Assembly: GCA_947478755.1 (NCBI GenBank)
Contig: CANJXH010000003.1
Span: 1-57,908, forward strand
Length of the DNA: 57,908 nt
Source of the DNA: Betaproteobacteria bacterium
GTDB lineage: Bacteria > Pseudomonadota > Gammaproteobacteria > Burkholderiales > Rhodocyclaceae
Reading direction: 5' to 3'
The notes under the pieces: generated by a model
What the model saw: the letters and a program-made list of their open reading frames with translations, nothing else
Told to the model about the DNA's origin: nothing
Databases searched by the model: none
Translations under genes and position numbers: made by a program
In this document: in pieces, positions 6,680 to 57,407 of the stretch
Numbering within the stretch: position 1 is the first letter of the stretch
Layout: the number at the start of each line of letters is the position of its first letter

Positions 6680-6695
6680 GATGTGTTCTCCTTAT

Positions 6696-6790: not shown

Positions 6791-6848
6791 GCGTACCGCC
6801 ACGATGACATTGTTCCCATGATTTTCATCAACATCGCCATGACCAGCA

Positions 6849-12511: not shown

Positions 12512-12627
12512 TTACCAACCTCCGTCCTCAGTTTGTGCCGTGCATGCGTTGAGGCACAATTCCTTCAGACATGACCCCGACCCGCCGGTTTCGGGCTGAT
12601 GCCATTAACTACGTCAGGGGGTGTGAG

Positions 12628-34352: not shown

Positions 34353-34371
34353 GGTGCGTATCTCTCAGTAT

Positions 34372-35403: not shown

Positions 35404-35430
35404 GTTAGTGCTCCTGTGGTGTTCGTGTGC

Positions 35431-36600: not shown

Positions 36601-36646
36601 GGCATTTCTCCTCTTTCTTGTTGTGGTGAAGCTGGGACTACATTTC

Positions 36647-38092
36647 CTACATCACGCGATTCAGAAGCATGGCGATGCGCTCGTCGGACATATTGCGGCA
36701 GCCGGAGGCGGCATTGAACGCACCCGCTGCGCCGAGCGGGGCACCGGCAAAGTAGGCGGCTTCCACCTGCCGCGTCATCACAGTCAGGCGCGTTTCGGCC
36801 AGCAGGTTGGCGTAGTCGAGTTGCCGCTCGTCAGGAACGGTACCACCTGCCGCCTCGTAGGCACGCAAGAACTCCTCCCAGGGACCGAGGGCTTCGGCCT
36901 GGAACCGGAAGTATCCGAGGTCATAGACGGGGTTGCCGATATGCGCGAATTCCCAGTCGAGAACGGCCGCCACTCTGTCGTTGTCGATCAGCATGTTGTT
37001 CAAGCCGTAGTCGCCGTGCACCAGGGTTCGTCTGCCGTCAATGAGATGGACGTTTTCCTTGAGCCAGCGGAAGGAGGATTCCATCAACGCGCTGGGTGCG
37101 TCGGCAGTCTTCCAGTTTGCGTAGGATTGGTCGAGCCAAGCGGTGACGTACTGGATGGTTGTCTTGTCTGCGCCGGAGGTCTGGCTGCCGAATGCGTCGA
37201 TTGGGACGCTGTGGATTTTCGCCAGTTGCGTGGCAACGTCGCGGGACGTGGTGAGATTGGGTGCAGGCATGATGAACATGTGGCCGATCATGCGTCCCGG
37301 ACGTCTTTCAACCAGCATGAACGGTGACCCGAAGATACCGCCGCTGGCTTCGATGGCCAAGGGTTTTGCCACCTGCGCGCCGTGCGCATGCAACACCTTG
37401 AGCAGTCGATATTCCTCAGTGACCGAGCTGCCGCCAAAGCCGCTGCCCGCATCGGCGCGCATCACCAGGGAGGAAGGCAAGGCGTGGTTGCCTTCCAGTT
37501 CGATGCCTATCGTGAATTTGGATGCGCCGCCCGACATGAAGCTGCTCTTCGCAATTCTGACGCCCTGCTCGGTAGGGTATTGCTCGGCGATGAAGCGGCC
37601 CAGGGCCTGTTCGTCATAGGGCTTGCTGTTGAAGGCAGTGGCCGCGCCAGTCTCTTCCGGCTTTTTTGCTGCCACAAGTGCAGTGTTGAACTTGCGACTG
37701 TAGTTGCCCTCGATCTCGATCATCTGCTTCTGGAGGTCGAGTGTCGTGGGCGATCCGGCCGCCTGCAGCACATTCAGCAGATCGAAGGCGGCGGCAAACA
37801 CCGGCTCCGGTGTCAACTCGGGTGCGGCCAGTGCGTCTTTCAAGCGTGAGAAGGCGGGGGCGCCGTCGGGTCCGCCGCACACCTTTTCCAACGCAGGCAG
37901 CAGCTGCGTATAGGCATTACGTATTTCGCCAGCCAGGACAGGGGTGTCGCTGTGCCGTGCCACCAGCCACGCCAGCACCGTATCTGCAAATGACATCTGC
38001 TCGCCAAGGGCCTTGTCCTCGGGGCGTCGAAACGCCGGATTGGCCAGGATCGCGCGCAGCGAGTTGAGCAGCAGGGTTGTTCGGTTGTCCAT
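36647..38092 (-). CDS. Phosphotransferase family protein (APH, ACAD10-like type)
   Basis: 'SFMSGGASKFTIGIEL', 'RTLVHGDYGLNNMLIDNDRVAAVLDWEFAHIGNPVYDLGYFRFQ'. Confidence 0.88.
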   Translation of the reverse strand: MDNRTTLLLNSLRAILANPAFRRPEDKALGEQMSFADTVLAWLVARHSDTPVLAGEIRNAYTQLLPALEKVCGGPDGAPAFSRLKDALAAPELTPEPVFAAAFDLLNVLQAAGSPTTLDLQKQMIEIEGNYSRKFNTALVAAKKPEETGAATAFNSKPYDEQALGRFIAEQYPTEQGVRIAKSSFMSGGASKFTIGIELEGNHALPSSLVMRADAGSGFGGSSVTEEYRLLKVLHAHGAQVAKPLAIEASGGIFGSPFMLVERRPGRMIGHMFIMPAPNLTTSRDVATQLAKIHSVPIDAFGSQTSGADKTTIQYVTAWLDQSYANWKTADAPSALMESSFRWLKENVHLIDGRRTLVHGDYGLNNMLIDNDRVAAVLDWEFAHIGNPVYDLGYFRFQAEALGPWEEFLRAYEAAGGTVPDERQLDYANLLAETRLTVMTRQVEAAYFAGAPLGAAGAFNAASGCRNMSDERIAMLLNRVM

Positions 38093-38529: not shown

Positions 38530-40365
38530 TCAGGCATTGACGGCATCGTCGCCGGTTTGGCCAATCGTTTCCAGTTCGCGGCGCAAGGCGCTGGTATCGA
38601 TGGGCTTGGTGAGGTAGCTGTCCATGCCATGCCTCAAACTTTCTTCCTCGGCGCCCTGCATGGCGTTTGCCGTCATGGCCACGATCGGTATGTGTCGTCC
38701 GTTGCCTGCTTCCTGCTGCCGGATATGTTGCGTGGCCTCATAGCCGTTCATCTCCGGCATGTCGACATCCATCAGGATGGCATCAAATCGGCCGGCCTGC
38801 CAGAGTGCGACGGCCTCGCGCCCGTTGTTGGCTATCGTGACCTCATGTCCCATTTTTTCGAGGATCTTGATCGCGAGTATCTGATTGACCTTGTTGTCTT
38901 CGGCGACCAGCAGATTGAGCTTCTGGCGCATTTCACGCAGTGAGTGGCGGGTAATCAGCGCCTTTTTCGTTGGCAGGTTTTCGCCCAATGCATTGATGAC
39001 TGCTTCTTCCAGCTCCCACTGCGACACCGGTTTGGTCAGGTAGCCAGCGATGCCAAGTTCACGGCAACGCGTGGCATGGCCGCGCTGCCCCTCTGACGTC
39101 AGCATCATGACAACCGTGCTGCTCAGCTCGTTGTGGGTTCGCACCTTTTCGATCAGCTGGAAGCCATCCATGTCGGGCATGCGCAGATCCGTCAGCAGCA
39201 TCCGGTAGGGCGTTCCCGCCGCTGCCGCCCGGGTCATCTCGGCAAGCGCCTGTGGCCCGTCACCGACAGTGACAGGCGTCATGCCCCATTGCAGCATCAT
39301 GTCGTGCAGAACATGGCGATTGGTCGAGTTGTCGTCGACAACCAGAATCGTTGCACCGGCCAGCTGCTCGGTTCCCAGTGTTTGCTTTGTTGCTTCGCCG
39401 GGAATGGTTTGCAATGGCAGGGTGAAGTGAAAGGTGCTTCCCTTTCCTTCGTCGCTGTCCAGGCCAATGGTTCCGCCCATCAGTTCCACCAGTCGCGCGG
39501 TGATGGTGAGCCCGAGGCCCGTGCCACCGTATTTTCGCGTGGTGGAGTTGTCTGCCTGGGAGAATGAGTCAAAGATGGTCTCGAATTTCTCGCGCGGAAT
39601 TCCTATCCCGGTATCGCGGATGCTGAAACGCAATTGCGCCACTGCTTCCGATGGCGAATTTGTTCTTTCGACATGGACTTCCACTTCGCCTTTTGCCGTG
39701 AACTTGATGGCGTTGCCAACGAGATTGATGATGATCTGACGCAACCGCCCCGGATCACCCACTACCTGTGCGGGCACCGTGCGATCGACATGCTGGATCA
39801 GTTCCAGCGACTTCTGATGTGCGCGAACCGCAAGTGACTTGACCGTATCGTGAAGCAGGCGGGCAAGTGAAAACTCGATGTTCTCGATGTTCAGCTTGCC
39901 GGACTCAATCTTCGAGAAATCGAGAATGTCGTTGATGATCGACAGCAATGAATCGGCGGACGACTTGACCATGGACAAATATTCAGTCTGTTCCTGCGTC
40001 AGTTCGGTTTGCAGGGCGAGTTCGGTCATGCCGATGACACCATTCATCGGCGTACGGATTTCGTGGCTCATGTTGGCGAGAAACTCGCTTTTGGCACGAT
40101 CGGCCGCTTCGGCGATGCGCTGCGCCTTGCGTGCCGCTTCGATCATCAGGCTCAGCTCGGCGTTGGCTCGTTCCAGCTCGATTGTCCGGGCATCGACGCT
40201 GCGTTGCAGTGTGATGTTGCGCTCGAACAGCGAGTAGGAACTGCCGGTATCGTTGACGCTGCGTTCAACCCTTTCCATCAAGACCTTGTTGATCTTGATC
40301 TGGGCGGCAAGTTTTTTCTCCAGCAGCGCAATCTGCGCGTCCAGGTCAGGGGAATCGCTCATCAA
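38530..40365 (-). CDS. Hybrid sensor histidine kinase with two receiver domains (NahK-like context)
   Basis: N-terminal coiled coil; '[19 protein letters not shown]'; '[13 protein letters not shown]'; REC1 '[14 protein letters not shown]...[13 protein letters not shown]'; REC2 '[14 protein letters not shown]...[13 protein letters not shown]'. Confidence 0.93.
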
Positions 40366-40368
40366 GCA

Positions 40369-41499
40369 TCATTCTCCAAGTGCGATGCCTGTCAATGTCT
40401 GATTGACATGGATGCCGTTGAACTGTTCGCCATAGGTCGAGAAACCGACAAAGTCGACATTGCCAAGTACCTTCGCCGCATCCTCGAACTGATCTTTTTG
40501 CTTGAGCTCCAGGCGGCGCAGGATGCAGTCGCAACCGAGAATGAATTTCAGGCTCGGCATTTCTTCTTTCAGATGGGCAAAGCTCTCGTCGAGGTTTCTG
40601 GCCAGCTCGTCGCCCTTGCCAACGGTCAGCACCAGCCCGTTGTCGATGGCGCAGAAAAAGGTGAGGCTGCCGTCCGGATTGACCTTCTGAATCGAGCGCA
40701 CGTAATACTCGCCACCAATTTTCAGCATTACCGGATGCGCCGCGAAGATCTGCGGGTTGAGCTCGGTTATTTCGAGGCCTACTGCCCGGGCGTATTCCTC
40801 GGCAGCCGGGCCGCCGTTGATTTCTGTAACGGTGCGAGTCGCGCAATCGCTCTCGGTAATAACCAATCGGATATCGGTAGGCGAAAAATGCTGGATATGA
40901 AAGGACCTGAAGGGGAGATTTGTTTCAAACACGGTCAGCACGGCAGCGTCCCGATGAAACTTCCCGTCGAAATAGACGTGGGTCTGCTTGAAGCCCAGAT
41001 CGTCTCCGGCGGAACCACCAACCAGGGTAACGCCTTTCATGCAGGTCTCCAGTGTGGCGACGACCTGCTCTTCAAGCATCGACAGTCCGTCCACCATGAG
41101 GAAGCTGAACATCTTTGCGGTATTGAAGTCTTTGGTTAATTTCAGTTCGGAGCGCACTTCCTTGGCCAAAGCCTCGCCTTCGGCATGGCTGAAATTGGCC
41201 AGATTCTTGATCAACTTGGGGTGGGCGACGAGGTCGGGAGAGGCAAGACTTACGCCGACGATTCCGCCTTCGCGATAACCGGCAGCCGAGGTGATTTCAC
41301 CGGAAGTTGTGCAACCAATGACAGGGCAGGAAAATACGCCATCCAACGCCAGCTCGATCGCCGTCAGGTCAAAGGTGGACGAAACGAACAGGATCGCGAC
41401 GCAGGCGTCCGGCTGGTCAATCGCCGCAGAAATTTCTTTTACGGCTTGTGCCGGGTCACGTGAGAATGTGGCCCCCTTTTTGACAGTCAGATTGGACAT
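40369..41499 (-). CDS. FIST N/C domain sensory protein (NosP-like candidate)
   Basis: 'CVAILFVSSTFDLTAIELALDGVFSCPVIGCTTSGEITSAAGYREGGIVGVSL', 'VTLVGGSAGDDLGFKQTHVYFDGKFHRDAAVLTVFETNLPFR'; stop lies 3 nt before the kinase start. Confidence 0.88.
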   Translation of the reverse strand: MSNLTVKKGATFSRDPAQAVKEISAAIDQPDACVAILFVSSTFDLTAIELALDGVFSCPVIGCTTSGEITSAAGYREGGIVGVSLASPDLVAHPKLIKNLANFSHAEGEALAKEVRSELKLTKDFNTAKMFSFLMVDGLSMLEEQVVATLETCMKGVTLVGGSAGDDLGFKQTHVYFDGKFHRDAAVLTVFETNLPFRSFHIQHFSPTDIRLVITESDCATRTVTEINGGPAAEEYARAVGLEITELNPQIFAAHPVMLKIGGEYYVRSIQKVNPDGSLTFFCAIDNGLVLTVGKGDELARNLDESFAHLKEEMPSLKFILGCDCILRRLELKQKDQFEDAAKVLGNVDFVGFSTYGEQFNGIHVNQTLTGIALGE

Positions 41500-41778: not shown

Positions 41779-42483
41779 ATGAAAGTCAGGACACGAAACA
41801 GGATAGACATGGTGTGTGCATGGAGCGGCCTTGCCTTTGCGCTGCTCGTGCTGGCGGGCGGCGTACTGTTTTCCGGTTTCCTGCCACCACCGACGCCTTC
41901 GCTTACTTTGGCAGAAGTTGCAAATATCTATCGTGGCAGTCCGGACATGATCCGTATTGGCATGGTGTTGATGATGCTGGGGGCGGCGTTGTTCATTCCG
42001 TTCACTGCGCTGATGACAAAATTCATCATCAGGATTGAAGGCGGCGTCGGCGTCATCTCCGTGATGCAGATCATGGGCGGCTACTCCAACATGATCCTGT
42101 TTTTCTATCCCAGCATGTGGTGGCTTACCGCAGGCTTCAGGCCGGAACGAGATCCGGAGCTGATCAGCCTGATCCACGATGCCGGTTGGTTGCAGTTTCA
42201 GGGCGCCATGTTCCCTTTCCTGTTCATGATGGGCTCGGTGGCGATTGCCGCACTGGTGGATGATGCTGAGCGGCCAGTGTTTCCGCGTTGGGTAGGTTTT
42301 TTCAACCTGCTGGCCATGTTGATGTTTCTACCCGATCAGATGATCTTTTTTTTCAAGTCCGGGCCGTTTGCGTGGAACGGATTGTTTCCCTGGTGGATAC
42401 CGGCCTTTACCTTCTTCGGCTGGATATTCGTGATGTTTGCCGTGCTGCGCAGGGCGGTGGCGGAGCAATCCCGCGCCACCTGA
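41779..42483 (+). CDS. GPFAWxG-family multi-pass membrane protein, paralog 6
   Basis: 'AGFRPERDPELISLIHDAGWLQF...FPRWVGFFNLLAMLMFLPDQMIFFFKSGPFAWNGLFPWWIP'. Confidence 0.8.
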   Translation: MKVRTRNRIDMVCAWSGLAFALLVLAGGVLFSGFLPPPTPSLTLAEVANIYRGSPDMIRIGMVLMMLGAALFIPFTALMTKFIIRIEGGVGVISVMQIMGGYSNMILFFYPSMWWLTAGFRPERDPELISLIHDAGWLQFQGAMFPFLFMMGSVAIAALVDDAERPVFPRWVGFFNLLAMLMFLPDQMIFFFKSGPFAWNGLFPWWIPAFTFFGWIFVMFAVLRRAVAEQSRAT

Positions 42484-44780: not shown

Positions 44781-45950
44781 ATGACAATCCTGCTTCTTGA
44801 AATGAACGAATTGGCGTTTATGCGTGCTGCAAGTGCAGCTACCGATGGCCTGACCGATTACGGAGATGAATCCTTCCGCGAACCGCTGCGGGTGCTGATC
44901 GCCTCGATCCGCGACGAAGCGCAACTCACGCCGGAAGGCCTGTTTGGCTGGCAACAGGGCGTCATCCGCCTGCTCGGTCATCGGCTGCGCATGCAGGAAC
45001 TGATCAGCAAGCATCCGGAAATCCTCGACGAGCCGATCGACAAGCCGCTGATCATGGTCAGCATGCAGCGCACTGGTTCGACCAAACTGCAGAAAGTGCT
45101 TGGCTGCGATGACTACTGGAATGCGCCGCTGTTCTGGGAAACCCTGTTTCCCTTTCCCTTCCCGGGCGAAGCACGCGGCAACCCCAAGCCGCGCATCGAC
45201 GCAGCGCACGAGTGGACCAAGATGTTTTACACCATCATGCCGGACGTGATGGCGGCGCATGCCATGGTGCCGGAGGAGACCGACGAAGAGACATTCGCTG
45301 TCGAAATGTCCTTCCGCTGGACCGTGGCATCGATCTACGGCACGATCCCCAGCTACATCCACTGGGTAGAGACGCATACAGCGGAACCGACCTATCAGGA
45401 CCTCAAGCGCATCCTGCAATGTCTGCAGTGGCAGCGCGGCAGGCGCAAGCCCTGGTTGCTCAAGGCGCCGTGGCACATCGGTTTCCTCGACTCGATCATG
45501 AAGGTGTTCCCTGATGCGACCGTGGTGCAGTGCCATCGCGATCCCTTCGAGTCGGTGCCATCGAACTGTGGTCTGATGTACATGGGACGCAGCGCCGGCC
45601 GGCCGACGCTTTCGAAGCTCGAACACGGCGCCGACGTACTGGCCATGATGGGCCGCGAAATGGAGATGCACCTCAAGCAGCGCGATGCCCTGGGCAGCAA
45701 GGATCCAACTGTGGACGTCACCTTCCGCGACATCGTCGGAGATGCGATTGGCGTGGTGCGTAAGATATACGCGGCACGCGGCCAGACCCTGGATGCCGTG
45801 GCCGAGCAGCGCATGCGTGAGTGGGAAAGCGCAAACGCTCGCCACAAGCACGGCAAGTTTGAATACAGCGCCGAGGAATACGGCATCACCCGGGAAAACG
45901 TCGCAAAGGCTTTTGCCGAATACAACAAGCGCTTCGCTAAGCTCAACTGA
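44781..45950 (+). CDS. Sulfotransferase family protein, 5 of 6
   Basis: 'DGLTDYGDESFREPL', 'PLIMVSMQRTGSTKLQKVL', 'VQCHRDPFESVPSNCGLM', 'HGKFEYSAEEYGI'. Confidence 0.9.
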   Translation: MTILLLEMNELAFMRAASAATDGLTDYGDESFREPLRVLIASIRDEAQLTPEGLFGWQQGVIRLLGHRLRMQELISKHPEILDEPIDKPLIMVSMQRTGSTKLQKVLGCDDYWNAPLFWETLFPFPFPGEARGNPKPRIDAAHEWTKMFYTIMPDVMAAHAMVPEETDEETFAVEMSFRWTVASIYGTIPSYIHWVETHTAEPTYQDLKRILQCLQWQRGRRKPWLLKAPWHIGFLDSIMKVFPDATVVQCHRDPFESVPSNCGLMYMGRSAGRPTLSKLEHGADVLAMMGREMEMHLKQRDALGSKDPTVDVTFRDIVGDAIGVVRKIYAARGQTLDAVAEQRMREWESANARHKHGKFEYSAEEYGITRENVAKAFAEYNKRFAKLN

Positions 45951-45986
45951 GCAGAATCAACAACCAACAACAACGAGGAGAACGAC

Positions 45987-46799
45987 ATGGCAACGAATCT
46001 GATGCAGGGCAAGGTAGCAGTCATTCTGGGGGCTAGTGCCGAGGGTGGCATCGGCTGGACCACGGCCGAGACCATGGCGCGTGAAGGGGCCAAGGTCGTG
46101 GTGGCCGCACGCAGCCTCGACAAGCTCGACAAACTGGCCAAGAAGACGGGTGGTCTGGCCGTGCAGTGCGATGCGACCAAGCACGCCGACATCATCGCGC
46201 TCGGCGAAACCGTCAAAAAGCAATTCGGCAAGGCCGATGCTGCCGTCTACACACCGAGCGGGGTCTGGTTCTCCATGCTCGCCGGTACCGATGAAGCCTC
46301 GCTGCGCGAAGCCATGGAACTGCATTTCTTCGGTGGCTTCTTCTTCGTCCAGGAAATGCAGAAGGCCATCGACCACGACGGCACGATCACCCTGATCTCG
46401 TCGATTACGTCCACCAACACTCAGGACGGGGTGGTTGGCTATTCCTGCGCCAAGGGCGCGATCCAGAACCTGACGCGCTATGCGGCCAAGGAGTTTGCCC
46501 CGAACAACATCCGTGTGAACTGCGTGTTCCCCGGTCTCACCGATACACCAATGGTGTCCGGTGCCACCGGCAACCCGGCCTTGCGCAAGGTATTCGAGCG
46601 CGAGATTCCGCTCGGTCGTCTTGGTGTCGCCAACGATATCGCCGAATACATCACCTTCCTCTCGTCGGATCGCGCCAGCTACATTACCGGCGCCTTCACC
46701 CCGATCGATGGCGGAAATTTCATGACCCGCCTGCCGCGCTTCGACGAAATGCCGTCGATGGAAGAGCAGCAGGCTGCCATGCCCGTCACCAAGGACTGA
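45987..46799 (+). CDS. SDR family oxidoreductase
   Basis: 'GKVAVILGASAEGGIGWTTAETMAREGAKVVVAAR', 'YSCAKGAIQNLTRYAAKEFAPNNIRVNCVFPGLTDTPM', 'ITGAFTPIDGGNFM'. Confidence 0.93.
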   Translation: MATNLMQGKVAVILGASAEGGIGWTTAETMAREGAKVVVAARSLDKLDKLAKKTGGLAVQCDATKHADIIALGETVKKQFGKADAAVYTPSGVWFSMLAGTDEASLREAMELHFFGGFFFVQEMQKAIDHDGTITLISSITSTNTQDGVVGYSCAKGAIQNLTRYAAKEFAPNNIRVNCVFPGLTDTPMVSGATGNPALRKVFEREIPLGRLGVANDIAEYITFLSSDRASYITGAFTPIDGGNFMTRLPRFDEMPSMEEQQAAMPVTKD

Positions 46800-46810
46800 G
46801 GAGACCGAAC

Positions 46811-47191
46811 ATGACCATTTCCTTCATCGCCCGCTGGTTCCCCAGGCCCGAAAAGCTCGAGGAATTCCTTGGCGTCATTGGCCGCCTTGGCGCCGGCTTT
46901 CCGCCGGAAATCGCTGCCGGCATCACGCTGCTGCAGCCATCCATGAATCGCGACGGGCAGTTCATCGCGCTGGAAGTCTGGAAGGATGAAGCCATCCTCA
47001 ACCAATTGAGAGCGTCGAAGCTGTTCCATGACGCGATCCGCGACATGAGTGCCTGCTGCAGCAAGCCGTGCGAGATCGAGCATCTCAACCCGCTGGGCGA
47101 CGATGGCAGTGTCTTCCAGTGCTATCCGAAGGGCAAGGCCGATCCGAAGTTCTATCCGGATCTGGGCGACATGACGGCGCTGTACTGCTGA
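46811..47191 (+). CDS. Antibiotic biosynthesis monooxygenase-like (dimeric alpha/beta barrel) protein
   Basis: MTISFIARWFPRPEKLEEFLGVIG...'RASKLFHDAIRDMSACCSKPCEIEHLNPLGDDG...YPDLGDMTALYC'; clear paralog of 19704-20105. Confidence 0.65.
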   Translation: MTISFIARWFPRPEKLEEFLGVIGRLGAGFPPEIAAGITLLQPSMNRDGQFIALEVWKDEAILNQLRASKLFHDAIRDMSACCSKPCEIEHLNPLGDDGSVFQCYPKGKADPKFYPDLGDMTALYC

Positions 47192-47222
47192 TGAATCGCC
47201 CCATGCATCCTGGAGACGACAG

Positions 47223-48512
47223 ATGAATGCACTGATCCTCGCCGGCATACTCGCCACGGCAGACCAGGACGTGATTGAAACCCGCGCGCTCAAAATACTG
47301 AAGTCGCCGGAAGTGCAGCAGCAGATCGTTGCCACGCGCAAGACCTATGAAGCCGACCCGATGGCGCAAAAGCCTGGCGGCCGGGCGATGCTGGAAAATG
47401 CGGTGCAGGAACTCGCCTGGGCTGCCGTGCTGGTTGGGGTCAATACCGAGCCGACGCACCCGAAGGTGGCCTGGGTTTACACCGAGCCGCGCAAATGGCG
47501 GGGGCGTTCGGTACCCGGTTCGCGCTGGGGCGTGGACAATCCCGACAACGTGTATCGCATCGCTCCGATCGACGGCACCTCGAAATACGAGGTCCATGTC
47601 CGTCGCCATGGCGAAGCACCGATCCAGTTCAGCTTCCTGACCTACAACCATTTCCTCGGCGAGGACGGACACCAGAAGGATGTCGATGCGCCGCTCGGCG
47701 GCCTGCGCAGTGACGAAGTGAAATGGGAGCGGGATGGCACCTTCATATTGACCATCGATCCGGAACCGGCCAACGACCGCCCGAATCACATTCGCAGTAC
47801 GCCCGACATCAAGCAGCTGCTGATGCGCAATACGATGAGCGACTGGGTGCATCAGCGTCCGCTCGAAATCTCGATCAAGCGCGTCGACGGACCGCCGGCT
47901 GATGCGCCGGCCAGTGATGACGTGCTGGCCAGGCGCTCCGCAGTATTCCTCGACGCCGTGACCAGCCTCAGCCTCAACTGGAAAGCGAAATCCCTGTTCG
48001 GCCACTGGGAAGACAATTCACTGTGCCAGCCCTATGGTCGTGGCAAGCAGTGGGGCTATGCAGCGTCGGGCAACTTCGATCTGGCCGACGACGAGGCGCT
48101 GGTCGTCACGGTCGACCCGCTCGACGCGCAATACATCGGGTATTCACTCACGGACTTGTGGCTGGCCTCGCTCGAACACATCAACAAGTTTGGCAGCCTC
48201 AATACGCAGCAGTCCTGGCGCAATGCCGATGGCACCTATACCTACGTAATCGCGGCGCGAGACCCCGGCTTCTACAACTGGCTGGATACGGGTGGCCTGC
48301 GCCAGGGCAGCATGCTCTATCGCTGGCAGGTGTTGCCGGCTTCGCGCACCTCGGCCGAGGGTGCCGTGGAAAGCATCACGCGGGTGAAGTTCAACGATGT
48401 CCGCCAGGCACTGCCGGCCGACGCGAAGTTCATCGACGCGTCCGAACGCGCCATCATTCTTCGGGAACGTGCTGCCGATTACGCGCGCCGCTATGGTTCG
48501 GTAGAGCAGTAG
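47223..48512 (+). CDS. DUF1214 domain-containing protein, 4 of 5
   Basis: 'DNPDNVYRIAPIDGTSKYEVHVRRHG', 'ARDPGFYNWLDTGGLRQGSMLYRWQVLP'. Confidence 0.8.
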   Translation: MNALILAGILATADQDVIETRALKILKSPEVQQQIVATRKTYEADPMAQKPGGRAMLENAVQELAWAAVLVGVNTEPTHPKVAWVYTEPRKWRGRSVPGSRWGVDNPDNVYRIAPIDGTSKYEVHVRRHGEAPIQFSFLTYNHFLGEDGHQKDVDAPLGGLRSDEVKWERDGTFILTIDPEPANDRPNHIRSTPDIKQLLMRNTMSDWVHQRPLEISIKRVDGPPADAPASDDVLARRSAVFLDAVTSLSLNWKAKSLFGHWEDNSLCQPYGRGKQWGYAASGNFDLADDEALVVTVDPLDAQYIGYSLTDLWLASLEHINKFGSLNTQQSWRNADGTYTYVIAARDPGFYNWLDTGGLRQGSMLYRWQVLPASRTSAEGAVESITRVKFNDVRQALPADAKFIDASERAIILRERAADYARRYGSVEQ

Positions 48513-48530: not shown

Positions 48531-49328
48531 TCACGTGCGCTTGTTGCGCCAATGCCAGGGAGAATCGGTGCCCAAGATGTGGGCAATGCCATGAACGGCG
48601 AGCCCCGATAGCACGAATGCGGACCACCCGGCAATACTGCTCATCAGCGGCGACACGTTGGGCGTGTGGATCGAAATCATCGACGGCAGGCCCACCAACG
48701 CGAAGGCCACGACATAGGTGATGGGCATGATGACCGGTACGAGCAGCAGCTTCCAGCCGCGCAGGCTGGCGCCCATGAAGGCCAGAACGCTGGCAATCAG
48801 GTAGGCCCCCATGGCATTGCATGGCCCCCACCAGAACGGGAACTTGTTGATCAGGATCAGCGGCTGTTGTCCGTAGTAGTAATAAAGGTTGGTCGCCATC
48901 ATCGCTTCTTCCTGCAGCAGGTCGATGGTCAGCGGTATCAGGAACCACAGCCACACGCCGCGCATGGTGACGCCCCTGGCAAAGGCAAGATAGTTGGCGG
49001 TGACCAGCACGCCGAAATAGGCCGGGTAGTTGATGACGACCCACAGCGGTATGCGCCGCCCCATCAATTCGAACGCCGTATTCTGGCCATGGATCGGATG
49101 CCAGGCCGCGCCGATGATGTCGAGGAAGGGCTCGGCAAGCAGGTTGGTGAAACCGCCGAGCAGGATCAGCAATACGATGGGACTGCCGTGTTTTTGCCAG
49201 TGCCGCAGACCATAGACAAAAACCAGGGTGATCAGCACGAAGCAGACCATCATCACTTGATTCGCGGCCGCCAGATTGAAAGTGGTGTCCATCGGCGGCA
49301 ACAGGATCTTCAGATTGTCATCCCACAT
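48531..49328 (-). CDS. Multi-pass membrane protein of unknown function
   Basis: 'LLILLGGFTNLLAEPFLDIIGAAWHPIHGQNTAFELMGRRIPLWVVINYPAYFGVLVTANYLAFARG'. Confidence 0.75.
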   Translation of the reverse strand: MWDDNLKILLPPMDTTFNLAAANQVMMVCFVLITLVFVYGLRHWQKHGSPIVLLILLGGFTNLLAEPFLDIIGAAWHPIHGQNTAFELMGRRIPLWVVINYPAYFGVLVTANYLAFARGVTMRGVWLWFLIPLTIDLLQEEAMMATNLYYYYGQQPLILINKFPFWWGPCNAMGAYLIASVLAFMGASLRGWKLLLVPVIMPITYVVAFALVGLPSMISIHTPNVSPLMSSIAGWSAFVLSGLAVHGIAHILGTDSPWHWRNKRT

Positions 49329-49442
49329 GGTGTTCCTCCCGTAATTTTTCGTAACGCAATTGCCTGACCGGAGAAGTATATCGGCAGCGGCGGCAATGAA
49401 CCTGCTTCAGTCTTGATCAAGCCTGACGGTAGACGAAATCGC

Positions 49443-49511
49443 TCAGTCGGTGGAAGCGGCTGAACCGATGTTGACGACACTACTGCTGCCAGTAGCCAGC
49501 TTCATTGACAT
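49443..49511 (-). CDS. Possible micro-ORF (20-22 aa) in the intergenic region; speculative
   Basis: Minus strand AGGAGGG-ATATGTCA-ATG...TGA encodes (MS)MKLATGSSSVVNIGSAASTD; the inner Met has ideal RBS spacing (8 nt). Confidence 0.3.
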   Translation of the reverse strand: MSMKLATGSSSVVNIGSAASTD

Positions 49512-49587
49512 ATCCCTCCTGACGGGAATGCTGTCAATAGTGCCATCTACATTCCGATCACACGTAGGGATGCGGATTGCCGGGCGA

Positions 49588-50619
49588 TCAACCCGGCAGC
49601 ATGTAGGAAGGCGGCTGGATCACCGAGGTGCCGACCACGCCCAGCCAGTTGAAGGGCAGGTGGTAGACGAGGATGAACAGTGCCCCACAGGCGCCGATCA
49701 CGGCAAGCATGCGCATCGGTGTCCTGAGTCCCGGACTCAGACGATTGGCACCGCGCTCGACCAGGGAAAGCCCTTCGGGATCATCCAGCGCGCTTTGGCG
49801 TATCACGGTAAAGCCGAGGCTTACGCCGCCGGCACAAAGCGCCTCATAGAATGGGAATTGGTAGATCGATCCGGCAAAGAAGGTGAGCGGCCCATAGGTC
49901 TTGGGGAACATGTAGGCGTCGGTGGTGCGGATGATGCTGTTCTCGAGCACGATGTCACCGATGATGAAGGCTGCATAGGTGATGGCATAGGCCGTGGCAT
50001 TGGTCATGTTCGGGAAGCGGGTTCGCAATGACTTGATGATGGCGCAGCCGGCAAGGCTTGCCGTGATCCCGAAATAGACGTACATCGGGAAGCCCCACAA
50101 CAGTGATTCCGCATAGCGTGCCGGGCCGCCGGTATAAAAGGGCATGAAGGAGGTCCACACGCCGAGATTGATGCTGTGCGCGTTGAAGGCGAACAGGAAG
50201 TGGTGCAGGTTGAGCAGGCTGTCGGCTGAAAAACCGATCACGCCGCCGAGCAGCAGCATGCCTTCGAGAGTAACCTTGCGTTCCTTCATCCACGGCTTGG
50301 CGACACATTGCCAAACGCATTGCAGCACGACCAGGGTGCTGATCACCTCCAGCACGCGCAGTGCCATCAGCCGCCCCGGAGCGATGACGTCACCCGGCGC
50401 AATCGGCGCGGGGCCGAACAGGGTGTCGGACATGATCCAGCGTACCCAGGCATTGATCGCGATGGCAGTCCAGATTGCGCCCCAGATTGCCCACGCCTTT
50501 ATCGTATCGTTGCGCGCCGCAGTGACGGCTACAGTGCCTGCGGCGCTTGCAGGCGCGCTACCGCCACGGCGAAGCTCGCGCACAGAAGCGTCATAGGAAG
50601 TATTGGTCGATTTTTTCAT
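49588..50619 (-). CDS. Spirocyclase AveC-like multi-pass membrane protein
   Basis: 'LEGMLLLGGVIGFSADSLLNLHHFLFAFNAHSINLGVWTSFMPFYTGGPARYAESLLWGFPMYVYFGI', 'DIVLENSIIRTTDAYMFPKTYGPLTFFAGSIYQFPFYEALCAG'. Confidence 0.6.
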   Translation of the reverse strand: MKKSTNTSYDASVRELRRGGSAPASAAGTVAVTAARNDTIKAWAIWGAIWTAIAINAWVRWIMSDTLFGPAPIAPGDVIAPGRLMALRVLEVISTLVVLQCVWQCVAKPWMKERKVTLEGMLLLGGVIGFSADSLLNLHHFLFAFNAHSINLGVWTSFMPFYTGGPARYAESLLWGFPMYVYFGITASLAGCAIIKSLRTRFPNMTNATAYAITYAAFIIGDIVLENSIIRTTDAYMFPKTYGPLTFFAGSIYQFPFYEALCAGGVSLGFTVIRQSALDDPEGLSLVERGANRLSPGLRTPMRMLAVIGACGALFILVYHLPFNWLGVVGTSVIQPPSYMLPG

Positions 50620-50727
50620 TTTTTCTCCGATCCCGTATTCGTGGTCTGGCTTGGCAGGGGTGATGCGAACGGATTGTCCAGCAAGGGCAGGGGGGGATGC
50701 AAGATTCCTCTCTGTCGTCCGGTGTCG

Positions 50728-51879
50728 CTACTTTTTTGCACCTTCCTTGACCAGTCGGCACACTTCGGCCATCTGTTCGATGTTGCTGAAAGGGTCGGTC
50801 TCGACCATCAGCGGCGCGAGGTCCGCGATCAGGTTGAGATTCGAACCAGCTTTGGCATAGGGGATGATCTCCCGGGCGATATCTTCCGGTGAACCGTAAA
50901 AATAAGTCTTGCGCACCATCTCCGGCGTGACGCGTGAGATCACTGCATCTACCTGCGCGCGTGTCATGCCTGCGGGACACATGTCGAAGGCGTAGTGCCA
51001 GTCGAGCGGCATAACCGAGTCGATGCCTTCCTCGGCCCAGTCGGCCATGTTGATGCGGCCGCCTGTCGCGGCATACCACTTGAGCAGCGGGTTGTCGACG
51101 TACTGTTCGAAATCGTCCTTGCTCTTGCAGATGAAGGCAATGTGATGCAAGCCGTAGACATAGGGGTCGTTGGCACGTCCGGCCTTTGCCATCTCGCCCT
51201 TGTGGTGCCGGATTGCCTCGGCGTATTTTTCAGGTCGCGCAAAAACGAAAGGTGCGCCGGAAGAAAAGCCGTCGGCGTGCTTCACGGAAAGTTCGGTGAG
51301 GCGAGGGCCGCCGCCCATGGCGACGATCTCGGGCATGCGGTCCTTGCCGCCATTGCCGATCCAGGCATCCTTGAGCTTCCACACCTTGCCTTCAAAATTG
51401 ACCAAGCCTTTTTCCTTGAGCAGCAATTGCAGAATCTGGATCGTGTCTTCAAGACGCTTCAGGCCCAGCTTGCGATCACGGCCGAAAGGCACGATGTGGC
51501 GGGCTTCGCCTGCTCCCAGGCACAGCGTGGCCTTGCCTTCGGTGGCCATTGCCAGCGTCAGCATCATCTGCGCATATTCCGGCGGGTCGCGGCGTAGCGA
51601 GTCGGTACAGATCACGAAGCCAAGCTTCTCGCAAGCCGACAGCGCGAAGGCCGTCAGGACAAAGGGGTCGGCCGACGAGTCGGTATCCGACACGTATTTC
51701 GCCAGCGGCGTGCAGGAAGGCTCCCATAGCGCCTGTGGCCACCAGCTGTTCATCTGGTCCCAGATTACCAGCTGATCGACATGGCCCGTGTCCTCCATCG
51801 CCTTCGCCATCTGGCCGGCAAGCTTGGGTGTTCCAAAACGGCCGGCCCAGATGCCGATACCGGTACGAATTGTTTCCAT
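50728..51879 (-). CDS. LLM class flavin/F420-dependent oxidoreductase
   Basis: 'METIRTGIGIWAGRFGTPKLAGQMAKAMEDTGHVDQLVIWDQMN', 'MMLTLAMATEGKATLCLGAGEARHIVPFGRDRKLGLKRLEDTIQILQLLLKEKG'. Confidence 0.88.
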   Translation of the reverse strand: METIRTGIGIWAGRFGTPKLAGQMAKAMEDTGHVDQLVIWDQMNSWWPQALWEPSCTPLAKYVSDTDSSADPFVLTAFALSACEKLGFVICTDSLRRDPPEYAQMMLTLAMATEGKATLCLGAGEARHIVPFGRDRKLGLKRLEDTIQILQLLLKEKGLVNFEGKVWKLKDAWIGNGGKDRMPEIVAMGGGPRLTELSVKHADGFSSGAPFVFARPEKYAEAIRHHKGEMAKAGRANDPYVYGLHHIAFICKSKDDFEQYVDNPLLKWYAATGGRINMADWAEEGIDSVMPLDWHYAFDMCPAGMTRAQVDAVISRVTPEMVRKTYFYGSPEDIAREIIPYAKAGSNLNLIADLAPLMVETDPFSNIEQMAEVCRLVKEGAKK

Positions 51880-51918
51880 TCAATTTTCCTTCCGGGTTGG
51901 TTGGGTTTCTGGCTCGGG

Positions 51919-52743
51919 TCAGGCCAAGGCGTCACGCCACTGCAGCATTTCGCGTAGCGGGCCCAGATCCCAATTCGGGCCTTCCTCACGAACGAAAATA
52001 TGCTTCATGCCGAACTCGTTGACGAACATGTCGAGATCGTTGTCGGGAAACAGTTTCGGCTCGAAGCTGCCCACGATTTCGATCTCGTCGAAGTTGCGCC
52101 CCACTTCATCACAAATGCGCCGCAGACTCGCGATTTTCTGGCGGATTTGGTCGTTGGAGGCAAACACCGGCCATATGTCGGCATACTGCGCAACAATGCG
52201 GAGACCGAACTTTTCTCCGTGCGCGCCGATCAGCAGCGGGATTTTGCGCACAGGTTTGGGATTGAGCTTTTCGTAACGGGCATTGATGACGGGAATGGCA
52301 TTGGCCAGGTCACGCAAGCGGCTGGCCTGGGTGCCGTAATTGTCATAACCATAGTCGTCATATTCGGCCTTGAGGTAACCGGCACCGAGACCGAGGATGA
52401 AGCGGCCATTGGAGATGTGGTCGATGGTGCGCGCCATGTCGGCAAGCAGGTTCGGGTTTCGAAAGCCTATGGCGTGAACCGTGCAGCCGATTTCCGGTCG
52501 CGTGGTTGTTGCCGCCATTGCTGCCTGTATGGTGGTTGCTTCGAAGCATTTGCCTCCGCGCACCACGTTGTGCGACTGCGCGTTCGCCACGGCATCGGCA
52601 TCAACGAACTGCGCATGGAAGTGATCGGCAGTCCACAACCGGTCTACGCCGAGCGCTTCCGCTTCCATCCATGCATCCCGCATGCGTTTCATGTCACCGT
52701 GTTGCGGGGCAAGATGAAGTCCTATGGTGGGTTTGATGGTCAT
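51919..52743 (-). CDS. LLM class flavin/F420-dependent oxidoreductase
   Basis: 'MTIKPTIGLHLAPQHGDMKRMRDAWMEAEALGVDRLWTADHF', 'MARTIDHISNGRFILGLGAGYLKAEYDDYGYDNYGTQASRLRDL'. Confidence 0.9.
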   Translation of the reverse strand: MTIKPTIGLHLAPQHGDMKRMRDAWMEAEALGVDRLWTADHFHAQFVDADAVANAQSHNVVRGGKCFEATTIQAAMAATTTRPEIGCTVHAIGFRNPNLLADMARTIDHISNGRFILGLGAGYLKAEYDDYGYDNYGTQASRLRDLANAIPVINARYEKLNPKPVRKIPLLIGAHGEKFGLRIVAQYADIWPVFASNDQIRQKIASLRRICDEVGRNFDEIEIVGSFEPKLFPDNDLDMFVNEFGMKHIFVREEGPNWDLGPLREMLQWRDALA

Positions 52744-52753
52744 TTTTTCTCCT

Positions 52754-54025
52754 CTATTCCTCGTTGGGTACCTGAAAATATTCCTGATAGCGTTTGTAGG
52801 CTTGGCGCGCCCTGGCGACGGCCTCGGGTTTGCCGGTGCTGAACTTGTGACGCGGACGCGCATCGCGCGGTGTATCGGCGAGGTATTGCGCCATTCCATT
52901 GCGGCCTTGCTCGCTGAGCGCAATGCCGAAGTGCCGGTACATCGCTTCCACTGCGCCCATCGTATCTTTGACCAGATCCTGATAAAGAAGATGATAAATC
53001 TGCTTTTGCGGCACGACGCCGGCTTCAAGGGCATCGATCACGCCATTCAGTCGCGCAGCGGAAAAACTGGCATCGGTAACGAACTCGTAGGCACCGCCGC
53101 TGAACGGGTGGTCGCAGCGGCTCCATTGCGCTGTGCCGATCAGGCTGACCACCGAGGCAAGGGCGCGAACCGGATCGCGATGTGGCCAGGCAAAGCAGGC
53201 ATCGGGGTAGGTCTTCAACACCAGGCCGAGGCGATCCATGTGCTGAGTGTCTTTCAGCACCCAGTGCTTGCGCGGATTCTTCCATTGCAGCAGCTTGAGC
53301 ACGCGGCGGTGGTATTCCAGCGCCGGCGTCACGTCCTGTTTCATCATGAACATGTCGTAGCTCGGTACCTGGCCCAGCAGGCCCAGCCACGATGGCGCCA
53401 TGAAGTTCATCGCCATCACCTGGGTATCTTCCTGCGGCACGGTGCCTGCCCACTCGTGCATCGACACCATCGTCGGCACGACGCGATTCCAGCGGTCGGC
53501 GATCCGGTGTGCCAGCATGATGCGCGGGTCGCTGCGATAGCTCGCGGCTTCGGGCGGCGGGCAGGGAAAGGTCGCCTCCCAGCTCAGCAGCGACTTGTTG
53601 TCCGGATTCTCGGCAAGCGTATTCTGCAAAAAAGATGTACCGGAGCGCCCTTGGCCGAGCACGATGATGGGCTGCACGATGCGCTGCTCTTCAATTTCCG
53701 GATGTTGCCCGTATGTGTCCTCGACTCGCAGCCGCGCTTCAAGCAACAGCAGGATCTCGTGCCGCGCCCACAGGCGACCGAAGAGGTTGAGTCCCGCTTC
53801 GTCGTTGAGGGCCTTGATGAAGACGTGGAAGGGCTCGCGCCAGGAATCGTCGCCATAATCGGACAGGCCGGTAGCGCGATGCGCGGCATCGAGCAGCGAT
53901 GTCTCATCAAGCGGCACGACACCGGCAATATCCATGCACTCGCCTTCTTCGTTGACGCGTGTCAACCAGTCGGGGCGTGGCGGCGGTTGCCACAGGCTAC
54001 GCATGTCGGTATTGGTCGTATTCAT
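52754..54025 (-). CDS. Sulfotransferase family protein, 6 of 6
   Basis: 'TGLSDYGDDSWREPF', 'PIIVLGQGRSGTSFLQNTL', 'AWPHRDPVRALASVVSLI'. Confidence 0.9.
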   Translation of the reverse strand: MNTTNTDMRSLWQPPPRPDWLTRVNEEGECMDIAGVVPLDETSLLDAAHRATGLSDYGDDSWREPFHVFIKALNDEAGLNLFGRLWARHEILLLLEARLRVEDTYGQHPEIEEQRIVQPIIVLGQGRSGTSFLQNTLAENPDNKSLLSWEATFPCPPPEAASYRSDPRIMLAHRIADRWNRVVPTMVSMHEWAGTVPQEDTQVMAMNFMAPSWLGLLGQVPSYDMFMMKQDVTPALEYHRRVLKLLQWKNPRKHWVLKDTQHMDRLGLVLKTYPDACFAWPHRDPVRALASVVSLIGTAQWSRCDHPFSGGAYEFVTDASFSAARLNGVIDALEAGVVPQKQIYHLLYQDLVKDTMGAVEAMYRHFGIALSEQGRNGMAQYLADTPRDARPRHKFSTGKPEAVARARQAYKRYQEYFQVPNEE

Positions 54026-54033
54026 GGCGATAG

Positions 54034-55413
54034 TCAGTGCTCGGCAAAACGAAGGTTGAAGAATTTGGCGCGCTCGGCAAGCTGCAGCTTGCGCTCGGCT
54101 GGCGTCACACGCAGGGTACCGGGGGGCAGCACGGCGTCGAGGTCCTTGCGCTTTATGACCCTTCCTTCTATCCAGGGCGCCACCGCCGGCCCCGGATCAC
54201 GTGGCAGCAGGTGCCAGCGATGCATGACCTTCGGTTCGCGCAGTCCCACGCAATCGAGCCAGTTGTGTACTCCGGGATCGTCTGCGCAAACGACATAGGT
54301 AAAGCTGCCATCCGGGTTGGCGACGCTCTGCCCGCTGGACAGCGAACTGTTGCGCCGTCCGGCATCGAGCGAATGCATCCAGTAGTCCATGACGATGAGG
54401 CCGCGATAGTCCGCCCCGCCGCTGCCGACCTTGACGACGAAGGCTTCGTCGTCCTCGATGCGCAGGCGGCCAAAGGCCATCTGGCGCTGTTGCAGGCCGC
54501 CGACGATGACGCTGCCGCCGCTGGGGGAGACCAGCGTATTCACGGGCATGGCATTGATCATGGCGACCCAGTAATGGGTGGCGGGAATGTCGTCGACGAT
54601 GTAGAGCGCGGCGCGCGCGGCGATTTCCTCGTCGCTCATCGGCGGCGCTGTGGGCGGGTCGAGGCGCTCGATGTGGTAGGTAGGCGGCATCTCGGCCCAA
54701 TCGGCGCGCGCATTGCGCATGAAGCCGAAGCGCGCATCGCGTTTGAGCTGGATGTAATTCCGCCTGCCGTTGGCCGGTTCGGGACCGAAGCGGATGCTGA
54801 AGCGTCCGTCGGCGTCGAACTCGACGTCGCGCCAGTCGACATGTCCGAGGCTCATTGCCAGCGAGAGATTGCCGCAGACCTCGATCAGGCCATCGGTGAT
54901 GGCGGGCTCCATGCGCCGGCCCCGCAACTCGAAATGTGAATGCGGATCGAGTGCGAAGATCGAGTAGATGACATCCACGTTGTCGCCACCGAAGCCGATG
55001 GAGGCCGGTACCTTGCGCCCGAACCACTCATGCGCAGGGCCATACATGTGATGCAGCAACCGGGGATAGTTGGAATCGGCGCAGATGGCCTTGAGAATCA
55101 TCTCGTAGCCCCACTCCTGCAGGTGCTCGTCAAACTCGCGCCAGGCCTCCTCGCTCGCCGCGGCGGCGCCGAGCGTCCTGAGCCGGGTCGCCGCCGTCCT
55201 GATGGCGGCCTGCGCTACGGGCGCCTGCAGGATGCGCATCGCCTGGTCTTCCATGGCGAGCTGTTCCACCGTGGCCGTCGAGTTTCGCGGCGACATTGCC
55301 GGAGAATTGCCGGGCCAAACGGATTCCGCACTATTCATTGCCAAGCCCTCTGCCGCACCCAAGGGGTAGATGCTCATAGCGCCGAGCGCCTGCAGCATGG
55401 CGCGTCGTTTCAT
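54034..55413 (-). CDS. DUF1214 domain-containing protein, 5 of 5
   Basis: 'GGDNVDVIYSIFALDPHSHFELRGRR', 'ADDPGVHNWLDCVGLREPKVMHRWHLLPRDPGP'; start overlaps the upstream kinase stop by 4 bp. Confidence 0.8.
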   Translation of the reverse strand: MKRRAMLQALGAMSIYPLGAAEGLAMNSAESVWPGNSPAMSPRNSTATVEQLAMEDQAMRILQAPVAQAAIRTAATRLRTLGAAAASEEAWREFDEHLQEWGYEMILKAICADSNYPRLLHHMYGPAHEWFGRKVPASIGFGGDNVDVIYSIFALDPHSHFELRGRRMEPAITDGLIEVCGNLSLAMSLGHVDWRDVEFDADGRFSIRFGPEPANGRRNYIQLKRDARFGFMRNARADWAEMPPTYHIERLDPPTAPPMSDEEIAARAALYIVDDIPATHYWVAMINAMPVNTLVSPSGGSVIVGGLQQRQMAFGRLRIEDDEAFVVKVGSGGADYRGLIVMDYWMHSLDAGRRNSSLSSGQSVANPDGSFTYVVCADDPGVHNWLDCVGLREPKVMHRWHLLPRDPGPAVAPWIEGRVIKRKDLDAVLPPGTLRVTPAERKLQLAERAKFFNLRFAEH

Positions 55414-56555
55414 GTGCCATCGAAGCTCTGCAGCGCATCGAGGTCATCCGTCGCCGCCGCCATGCGGCCGATCAATTCGAGCAACGCGTCCCTCGGTTGC
55501 GCATAGGCCATCGCCAGCGTCGACGTCCACCAGATCAATGACGAACAAAGGTGTTGCCGATAGAAGGTCCACGCGTCGTCAACGCCGATTCTCGGCCCAC
55601 CCGCCTCGTGAAATCGGTCGAGGTAGAGCGCCAGCAGTTCCTGCTCCCACATGCGTCGATTCGCCGTTGTCAGGGACGTGGTCATGGCATAGGCGACATC
55701 GCGTGCCCAGTGCCCGGCGGCGATGCACTGCCAGTCGCCCAGCACCATGTGATCGGCGGCATCGAGATACCAGTTGCGCAGATGCACGTCGTTGTGGGTC
55801 AGCGTGCGCGGGTGACGGGCATGCAGTTGGTTCGATGCCAGTACCGCTTTCCATATCCCGTCATGGCGGCCATGCAGGCGATCCGGAATGACCTCGATCG
55901 CTTCCTCGAATCCCTTGCCGGAATATCCTTCCAGCTTGAGGTAGCCGTCGAGCCTTGCGAACATCTCTTCGTAAGTCCACACGCCGCTTTCCGCCATGGC
56001 CGGGCTGTCGTACAGCCGTCCGTGCAGCCGCGCCAGGTAGGCCATCTGGCTCTCGGCACGTCGGCGCGTGATCTCCGTGGTGTGCTCGCAAAACATGGCG
56101 CCCTGTCGCGCGAGGTCATCGAATATGAATATCGAGTTATAGGACTGCGGGTCGTAGGCGGCGAACAGGCAGTGCGGGGTGTCGACATCCAGCAGCGGGC
56201 GCAACTTGCGGTAGAACAATTCTTCGCCGACGATAAGGCCGCTCGTCGCGAGAAAAAGTCGCACATGCAGTTGCTGGGTCGCCTTGCAGAACGCCGTGGG
56301 CGGCAGCCCGGCGGCCAGCCCCGCATCGTTGTAGGTCAGCAAGAGGCGCGCGCGATTGGTGTTGCCATCGTCCACATCGATGCAACGATGGGCGACGACC
56401 CGTGCGTCGGCGTGGTCGCGGCACAGTGCATGGGTGAGCCATTCGTCGGTGATCGAGGCGTAACTGACCGGTACTTCCCCAACCGCGACCGGGCGCAGCG
56501 CCCGCGCCTGATCGCGTTCGAATTCACGGGTTACCCGTTCGATCAGATCGGACAT
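55410..56555 (-). CDS. APH/ecdysteroid kinase-like phosphotransferase
   Basis: 'HPRTLTHNDVHLRNWYLDAADHMVLGDWQCIAAGHWARDVAYAMTTSLTTANRRMWEQELLALYLDRF'; paralog of 35431-36600. Confidence 0.8.
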   Translation of the reverse strand: MSDLIERVTREFERDQARALRPVAVGEVPVSYASITDEWLTHALCRDHADARVVAHRCIDVDDGNTNRARLLLTYNDAGLAAGLPPTAFCKATQQLHVRLFLATSGLIVGEELFYRKLRPLLDVDTPHCLFAAYDPQSYNSIFIFDDLARQGAMFCEHTTEITRRRAESQMAYLARLHGRLYDSPAMAESGVWTYEEMFARLDGYLKLEGYSGKGFEEAIEVIPDRLHGRHDGIWKAVLASNQLHARHPRTLTHNDVHLRNWYLDAADHMVLGDWQCIAAGHWARDVAYAMTTSLTTANRRMWEQELLALYLDRFHEAGGPRIGVDDAWTFYRQHLCSSLIWWTSTLAMAYAQPRDALLELIGRMAAATDDLDALQSFDGT

Positions 56556-56608
56556 GCACACCGCCTTGTCGTCATCGCCATCTTCTCCAATTGGTCACCG
56601 TGAGGATG

Positions 56609-56974
56609 TCATTCGCCGTTGATGCTTTCGTTCTCGATGATGAAAAAGCGCAGGGCGGTACGGTCGATGAAGCGCTCCTCGTCTGGCACGATCACCGCTG
56701 CCACCTCGGGTGTGGCTAGGTGCGCCAGCGTCGCCTCCATGGTCGGGCGGTCGTCGAACCACAGCTCGGTGAGGCAGTCGTACTCTTCCGCTCCCGGGAG
56801 AGCCGCATCACCCTGATGGTCCAGCTTGCCGGTTTCGAGATAGCGTCGTGCGTAGCGCCGTGCCGCGGCCAGGTACGGGCGGGCCAGCGGTGCGTGATGG
56901 TTTTCGTAGTAATCCGCGAACTGCGCGTGGGTCAGTCCGGGGCGGCGCTTAATGAGGCCAATGCACTTGATCAT
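56609..56974 (-). CDS. EthD domain-containing protein
   Basis: 'MIKCIGLIKRRPGLTHAQFADYYENHHAPLARPYL...AEEYDCLTELWFDDRPTMEATLAHLATPEVAAVIVPDEERFID'. Confidence 0.88.
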   Translation of the reverse strand: MIKCIGLIKRRPGLTHAQFADYYENHHAPLARPYLAAARRYARRYLETGKLDHQGDAALPGAEEYDCLTELWFDDRPTMEATLAHLATPEVAAVIVPDEERFIDRTALRFFIIENESINGE

Positions 56975-57035
56975 GATGAGATCGCTGTTAATCAGCTGAA
57001 ACCGTGCGTGAGGCGCGAACGCGGGTCGGTATCGG

Positions 57036-57407
57036 CTAGACGGCCTTGGCTGCAGGCATCGTTTCGGTGATCGGCAACAGGAAGCTGGCCGAGATATTCA
57101 CCATGTCAAGGGTCGGACTGATGTCTACCCGCCCGGCATTGATGGCTTCGACCAGGTTTTTGGCAAACTGTGCGAGGTCTTCCTGCGTATTGCCCTCGAT
57201 TTCATACATTGCCATGTATTGGCGCGCATCGCCGCCGATGCCGGGCATTGCTTCAATGGTCTTGTCCAGCTTGTAGCGCGTGGCGGAAATGATGCCTGGC
57301 ACGTGAGTGAGGTCGGGCAGGTGTTTTCCCGAGTACCAGTTGTTGTATTCCTCCTCGACTTCAGCAGAAGCAGGGCTGGTGAAGGCAAGCATCAGGGCTT
57401 TTGGCAT
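57036..57407 (-). CDS. DUF4286/ABM-like small dimeric alpha/beta barrel protein
   Basis: 'MPKALMLAFTSPASAEVEEEYNNWYSGKHLPDLTHVPGIISATRYKLDKT'. Confidence 0.75.
   Translation of the reverse strand: MPKALMLAFTSPASAEVEEEYNNWYSGKHLPDLTHVPGIISATRYKLDKTIEAMPGIGGDARQYMAMYEIEGNTQEDLAQFAKNLVEAINAGRVDISPTLDMVNISASFLLPITETMPAAKAV

Follow-up and report, generated by a model that had tools for sequence, protein, structure and literature searches.

A nine-gene block on the minus strand

The stretch of DNA analysed here (henceforth referred to as 'the window') is the whole of contig C3, 57,908 nucleotides in length, from the 2.63-Mb draft genome of a betaproteobacterium of the Rhodocyclaceae (193 contigs, 95.9% complete, 0.45% contaminated). 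As an earlier note on this DNA had described, positions 57407 to 48531 are filled by genes on the minus strand; they number nine, and this block is one of a genome-wide, strongly expanded guild. The first gene (57036-57407) encodes a small protein that is only weakly ABM- or EthD-like (TIGR02118, 20.3 bits; DUF4286, 20.7 bits; both under the cut-off), and of the EthD-type proteins claimed for the block it is the second (56609-56974) that bears the name securely (PF07110, 77.4 bits); a 33% identical paralogue of the latter lies in a gene island on contig C14. The kinase-like gene that comes next (55410-56561, with its start at 56561 or 56555) indeed encodes an ecdysteroid-kinase-like (EcKL) phosphotransferase, which scores 40.6 bits against PF02958 (cut-off 22), also passes the APH model (32 bits), retains intact catalytic motifs, HNDVHLRN (HxDxHxxN) and GDWQ (DWQ), and has a 44% identical paralogue in the window at 35431-36600. 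The kinase gene overlaps the gene of a DUF1214-like protein (54034-55413; Tat-like N-terminus KRRAMLQALG) by exactly 4 bp, ATGA at 55410-55413, as previously noted. A Sulfotransfer_3 sulfotransferase (52754-54025) follows, and then two oxidoreductases of the luciferase-like monooxygenase (LLM) type, LLM1 (51919-52743) and LLM2 (50728-51879); the LLM1 reading frame as opened (to 53034) extends into the sulfotransferase gene, and 52743 is its likely start. The block ends with an AveC-like membrane protein (49588-50619; PF17198, 97.7 bits against a cut-off of 26.6) and a short membrane protein (48531-49328) whose family has no confident Pfam model and aligns by profile to the AveC-like family (hhalign, 87.6% probability), marking it as a remote AveC relative.

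The short gaps attributed to the block are present as far as LLM2, where they range from -4 to 61 bp (ABM-EthD 61, EthD-kinase 47, kinase-DUF1214 -4, DUF1214-sulfotransferase 8, sulfotransferase-LLM1 10 and LLM1-LLM2 39 bp), but not before the two AveC-type genes (LLM2-AveC 108 and AveC-last gene 259 bp). No promoter-like match was found on the minus strand within the intergenic gaps of the block, the single minus-strand terminator-like match sits within the AveC-like gene, and neither RNA families (Rfam) nor tRNAs were found in the window. The block is probably an operon, with closely spaced genes between 57407 and 50728, and it probably extends to 48531; judged from the sequence, a single transcript from the first gene to LLM2 is plausible, and we are less sure that it includes the two AveC-type genes.

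The sulfotransferase scores above the PF13469 cut-off (97.8 bits), matches 2zq5 at 1.3e-43 (384 residues, which we take to be Stf1, Rv3529c, of Mycobacterium tuberculosis) and has intact motifs for binding 3'-phosphoadenosine 5'-phosphosulfate (PAPS), GQGRSGT for the 5'-phosphosulfate and RDPVRALAS for the 3'-phosphate; it is predicted to be a PAPS-dependent enzyme. The assignment of its partner to DUF1214 is borderline by Pfam (PF06742, 24.8 bits against a cut-off of 25), but the family profile of this protein matches the solved structure 6ans, an uncharacterised protein of Burkholderia cenocepacia, at 3e-90. Its predicted structure is a confident model (predicted local distance difference test score, 88.6) and has the fold of 6ans and a partial match to that of VPA0735 (TM-score 0.36-0.38), proteins that share its sequence family and for neither of which we know of an established function. 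The predicted structure therefore assigns no function to the DUF1214-like protein. Residues invariant across 43 DUF1214-like members include R233, D368, D379, N384, W385 and R399. LLM1 passes the model of the F420-dependent MSMEG_2906 subfamily (TIGR03856, 255.2 bits against a cut-off of 243.7), and a 60% identical paralogue of it on contig C141 has the F420 synthesis genes CofGH (1109 bits), CofE and CofC as neighbours, so that the predicted use of F420 by LLM1 is well supported; an F420 ligase is present in few relatives. LLM2 is Mer-like and shares 61% identity with a protein of Mycobacterium triplex, and its matches in the PDB are F420 enzymes, but weak ones. No solved relatives were found by sequence for the kinase or the AveC-like protein.

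An expanded guild and its DUF1214-sulfotransferase pair

A Sulfotransfer_3 profile search of the genome returned 57 matches, or ~53 genes once pieces were joined, whereas the highest count in 80 relatives was 10 and the genome of the same genus, G001, had none. In a phylum sample of 399 genomes, first-look sulfotransferase candidates, which are unconfirmed as genes, numbered 61 here and 37 in the next genome, of 5.9 Mb. AveC-like proteins number 12, while no match passed the cut-off in any of 60 relatives and G001 had none, and DUF1214-like proteins at E 1e-20 number 16, against two in one relative and none in the other 79. The lack of any Sulfotransfer_3 or AveC-like match in G001, together with the fact that several genes have mycobacterial sequences as their nearest homologues, is what a binning artefact would give, with actinobacterial contigs mixed into the assembly. 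However, an island on contig C14 (sulfotransferase-DUF1214-kinase, 7.05-21.0 kb) sits between two flanks that are both collinear with G001 (73-81% DNA identity), and in G001 only ~1.9 kb separates the flanking regions. Within the window, the NamZ gene and its neighbour (5471-7400, minus strand) are collinear with G001 at 88% and 75% DNA identity, and the contig therefore belongs to the genome; further islands, on contigs C30 and C18, share their contigs with mraW and cysS, and contamination is low, as given above. Because the islands adjoin core genes collinear with G001, mis-binning is unlikely, to the point that we regard such an artefact as highly improbable, and the guild islands are native to the genome. 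A plasmid origin was rejected, since megablast against the plasmid collection gave no match.

Gene counts outside the profile searches derive from sampled contigs, on which 918 genes were called (46 sulfotransferases, 31 DUF1214-like, 29 kinases, 13 LLM and 6 AveC-like); these contigs were partly picked for carrying the families in question, and the shuffles keep the sample. Adjacency of DUF1214 and sulfotransferase genes on the same strand was observed 18 times against ~2.1 expected, a level reached for neither direction in 2000 label shuffles. The order kinase-DUF1214-sulfotransferase occurs twice, in the block and on contig C29 (reached in 5 of 20000 shuffles), and direct adjacency of kinase and sulfotransferase genes was not above chance. 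The sulfotransferase of C29 is the nearest to that of the block (67%), whereas its DUF1214 protein is only distantly related (28%) and the kinase there belongs to the other type, and for this reason we conclude that blocks keep a common architecture while swapping members. The block had been counted as the third DUF1214-sulfotransferase pairing of the window; two of the pairings, at 21139/22410 and 52754/54034, are direct and on the same strand, but the remaining one, at 44781-48512, is interrupted and reads sulfotransferase-short-chain dehydrogenase/reductase (SDR)-ABM-DUF1214.

Beyond this genome, the DUF1214 and sulfotransferase genes stand next to each other at 18 of 20 loci from named genomes, and nine of the 13 full-length same-strand DUF1214-to-sulfotransferase pairs in those loci have the 4-bp overlap. 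A conserved order elsewhere, which the earlier note had proposed as a check, was thus recovered in part: the pair recurs across phyla, and in Mycobacterium such pairs have LLM2, the AveC-like protein and the short AveC relative in their vicinity. Locus L067 of M. triplex holds five families of the block, with LLM2 61%, DUF1214 42% and sulfotransferase 62% identical, and it comprises a short membrane protein, DUF7065, LLM2, a phosphoenolpyruvate (PEP)-utilising protein, DUF1214, sulfotransferase and an AveC-like protein, with a member of an unnamed membrane family of 230 residues among its further relatives. It differs from the block in order and in having the PEP-utilising domain protein, beside LLM2, where the block has its EcKL kinase. 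PEP-utilising phosphotransferase-like proteins near LLM2 were seen at L067:6284-7951 and, on the M. avium plasmid pP7a, at L090:3360-5081 and 12272-13876; the window has an EcKL kinase at this place, and these proteins may represent another source of the phosphoryl group. A kinase annotated as of the ecdysteroid 22-kinase family adjoins an LLM2 homologue on an M. avium plasmid, one locus of Mycolicibacterium rhodesiae carries AveC-like, DUF1214, sulfotransferase and EcKL-type kinase (38%) genes, and the AveC-like protein of the block shares 47% identity with one encoded in a DUF1214-sulfotransferase locus of the Mycobacterium metagenome-assembled genome nzgw95. The short AveC relative, too, has family members in guild loci of Mycobacterium, Hydrocarboniphaga and Croceicoccus. 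In the sulfotransferase tree, the block gene falls in a clade of 14 rows (support 100/100) that unites paralogues from this genome with Hydrocarboniphaga and with mycobacterial sequences of five loci. A search of the phylum sample for LLM2 homologues at E 1e-70 found none in the other 398 genomes. The simplest reading of these relationships is that the guild has been exchanged between phyla, including Actinomycetota, by horizontal transfer in either direction. None of the papers searched names DUF1214 together with a sulfotransferase, and literature searches that combined sulfotransferase with F420 and AveC, or that looked for 2ZQ5, returned nothing useful.

Cofactor supply and the proposed function

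Genes for the supply of PAPS lie beside sister pairs. On contig C23 (L125:53-8635), cysD and a cysNC fusion stand directly before a DUF1214-sulfotransferase pair; the contig also carries a second DUF1214 gene and two proteins of ~555 residues with signal-like N-termini, one of which was scanned against Pfam and gave no match. A plasmid of Tsukamurella carries cysC and cysD next to a DUF1214-SDR-sulfotransferase trio whose sulfotransferase scores 573 bits against 2zq5. There, AGAACGTGTTCT precedes cysD and GGAACAGGTTCT precedes the DUF1214 gene (L089:5067-5078 and 6060-6071), palindromes that resemble the KstR sites given in PMC1995591; two KstR-like sites on this stretch arose in 1 of 200 shuffles, and such sites before cysD and the trio would link PAPS supply to the cholesterol regulon. 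The mycobacterial genes of the trio have been placed in the cholesterol gene set and the KstR regulon (PMC6429209, PMC1995591): Rv3529c, Rv3530c, Rv3531c and the F420 LLM enzyme Rv3520c are listed as cholesterol catabolic genes (PMC6429209), and a KstR site is reported between Rv3531c and Rv3532 (PMC1995591). Judging from this literature and from the Tsukamurella trio, the block has the same gene kinds side by side as Rv3531c-Rv3530c-Rv3529c, and differs in its order kinase-DUF1214-sulfotransferase, in having no SDR in the pair and in having no KstR-type site. KstR-type regulation in the window was rejected, the one match, at 34457, lying outside the block and, with 0.42 expected, not exceeding chance. 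To our knowledge, no role has been assigned to the mycobacterial counterparts in M. tuberculosis.

The reading we favour, at roughly even confidence, is that the block is an operon for the PAPS-dependent sulfonation, phosphorylation and F420-dependent redox conversion of a hydroxylated, hydrophobic compound of steroid- or terpenoid-like type, within a guild of the mycobacterial type. Rieske oxygenases, which lie upstream of the sister blocks on contigs C5 and C29, would supply hydroxyl groups; the sulfotransferase would sulfonate a hydroxyl from PAPS and/or the EcKL kinase would phosphorylate it; the DUF1214-like partner may bind or convert the sulfonated or phosphorylated product; the LLM enzymes would use F420 to reduce or oxidise the skeleton; and the AveC-type membrane proteins may take part in the conversion, for example in a membrane-associated dehydration or cyclisation. 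The suggestion in the earlier note of a multi-step pathway for tailoring or activation is partly supported, and fits the intact sulfotransferase and kinase motifs, the PAPS genes beside sister pairs and F420 synthesis. A more specific version, in which sulfonation or phosphorylation makes the hydroxyl a leaving group, the DUF1214-like protein catalyses an elimination or rearrangement and the double bond so formed is reduced by F420H2, an activated dehydroxylation shared with mycobacteria, is conceivable and in our estimate quite unlikely.

Several observations weigh against the sulfonation-phosphorylation-redox operon. LLM2 falls under every F420 subfamily cut-off (best 48 bits, with 276 needed), and the full order of the block was not seen outside it, neither in the genome nor elsewhere. 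The genome has no KshA_C match, a further difference from the mycobacterial trio, and the classical 9,10-seco steroid route, with its ring cleavage, is not supported. Since the N-termini of DUF1214 copies are export-signal-like in some and not in others, it is uncertain whether the copies have a shared site of action. Co-divergence of the two pair members was also rejected: over all taxa the DUF1214 and sulfotransferase distances correlate (r = 0.62, with no permutation as high), but among the genome's own pairs they do not (r = -0.09), and because of this the correlation over all taxa may mirror taxonomy alone.

Two other functions compete with that of the sulfonation-phosphorylation-redox operon. 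AveC-like (spirocyclase-like), ABM and EthD proteins are typical of natural-product clusters, and relatives of the sulfotransferase on a Planktothrix plasmid lie among type I polyketide synthase genes, so the block may decorate a secondary metabolite; yet a polyketide or peptide synthase is absent among the scanned genes of the window, families present at dozens of sites in the genome fit the metabolism of many related compounds better, and the likeness to AveC of avermectin biosynthesis is one of sequence family (PF17198) alone, in a protein that is likewise membrane-borne. Natural-product tailoring is, on this evidence, rather unlikely. We consider it similarly improbable that the kinases and sulfotransferases solubilise foreign or toxic hydrophobic compounds for export, in the manner of phase II conjugation, although the kinase shares its Pfam family and catalytic motifs with insect EcKL kinases and the genome has only three sulfatase-family matches against its ~53 sulfotransferases, such that conjugates may escape recycling. 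The kinase of the block, unlike those of insects, is bacterial and borne in a probable operon, and the association in operons with LLM reductases, with Rieske oxygenases and, on the M. avium plasmid, with acyl-CoA enzymes suggests conversion rather than mere conjugation.

Other features of the window and wider meaning

Beyond the block, the window carries five more sulfotransferase genes and four more DUF1214-like genes. A companion cluster on the plus strand (44781-48512) converges on the block and comprises a sulfotransferase (44781-45950), an SDR (45987-46799), an ABM-like protein (46811-47191) and a DUF1214-like protein (47223-48512). A second kinase cluster on the minus strand (33189-38092) begins with an APH kinase (36647-38092) and the EcKL paralogue mentioned above, and continues with a DAPDH_C-like dehydrogenase (34372-35403) and a sulfotransferase (33189-34352); its EcKL-DAPDH-sulfotransferase order was found again on contig C15. 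Between these two sulfotransferase clusters, a hybrid histidine kinase with two receiver domains (38530-41499, minus strand) adjoins a FIST sensor protein. The directly adjacent sulfotransferase-DUF1214-like pair on the plus strand spans 21139-23765, and beyond it a putative flavin adenine dinucleotide monooxygenase, so called from its N-terminal GAGPAGL motif, is encoded at 23814-24986 (minus strand), where the Pfam scan covered the open reading frame of the opposite strand. The membrane family of ~230 residues noted above in M. triplex has copies in the window at 9533-10222, 10313-11005, 11819-12511, 31898-32596 and 41809-42483; it has no convincing Pfam match, 19 copies were counted on the sampled contigs, and homologues are encoded in the mycobacterial loci L067-L070. 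Beside NamZ, positions 6690-6788 have several matches in the relatives G028 and G160 and no Rfam or tRNA match.

What is new here is the setting, a strongly expanded guild that is shared by horizontal transfer, keeps DUF1214 and sulfotransferase together as a pair and is linked to PAPS and F420. The pair, conserved and often overlapping, recurs in several phyla, and DUF1214 is a family of unknown function. With ~53 sulfotransferases, 12 AveC-like proteins and the genes for making F420, this genome offers a natural test bed for the role of DUF1214.

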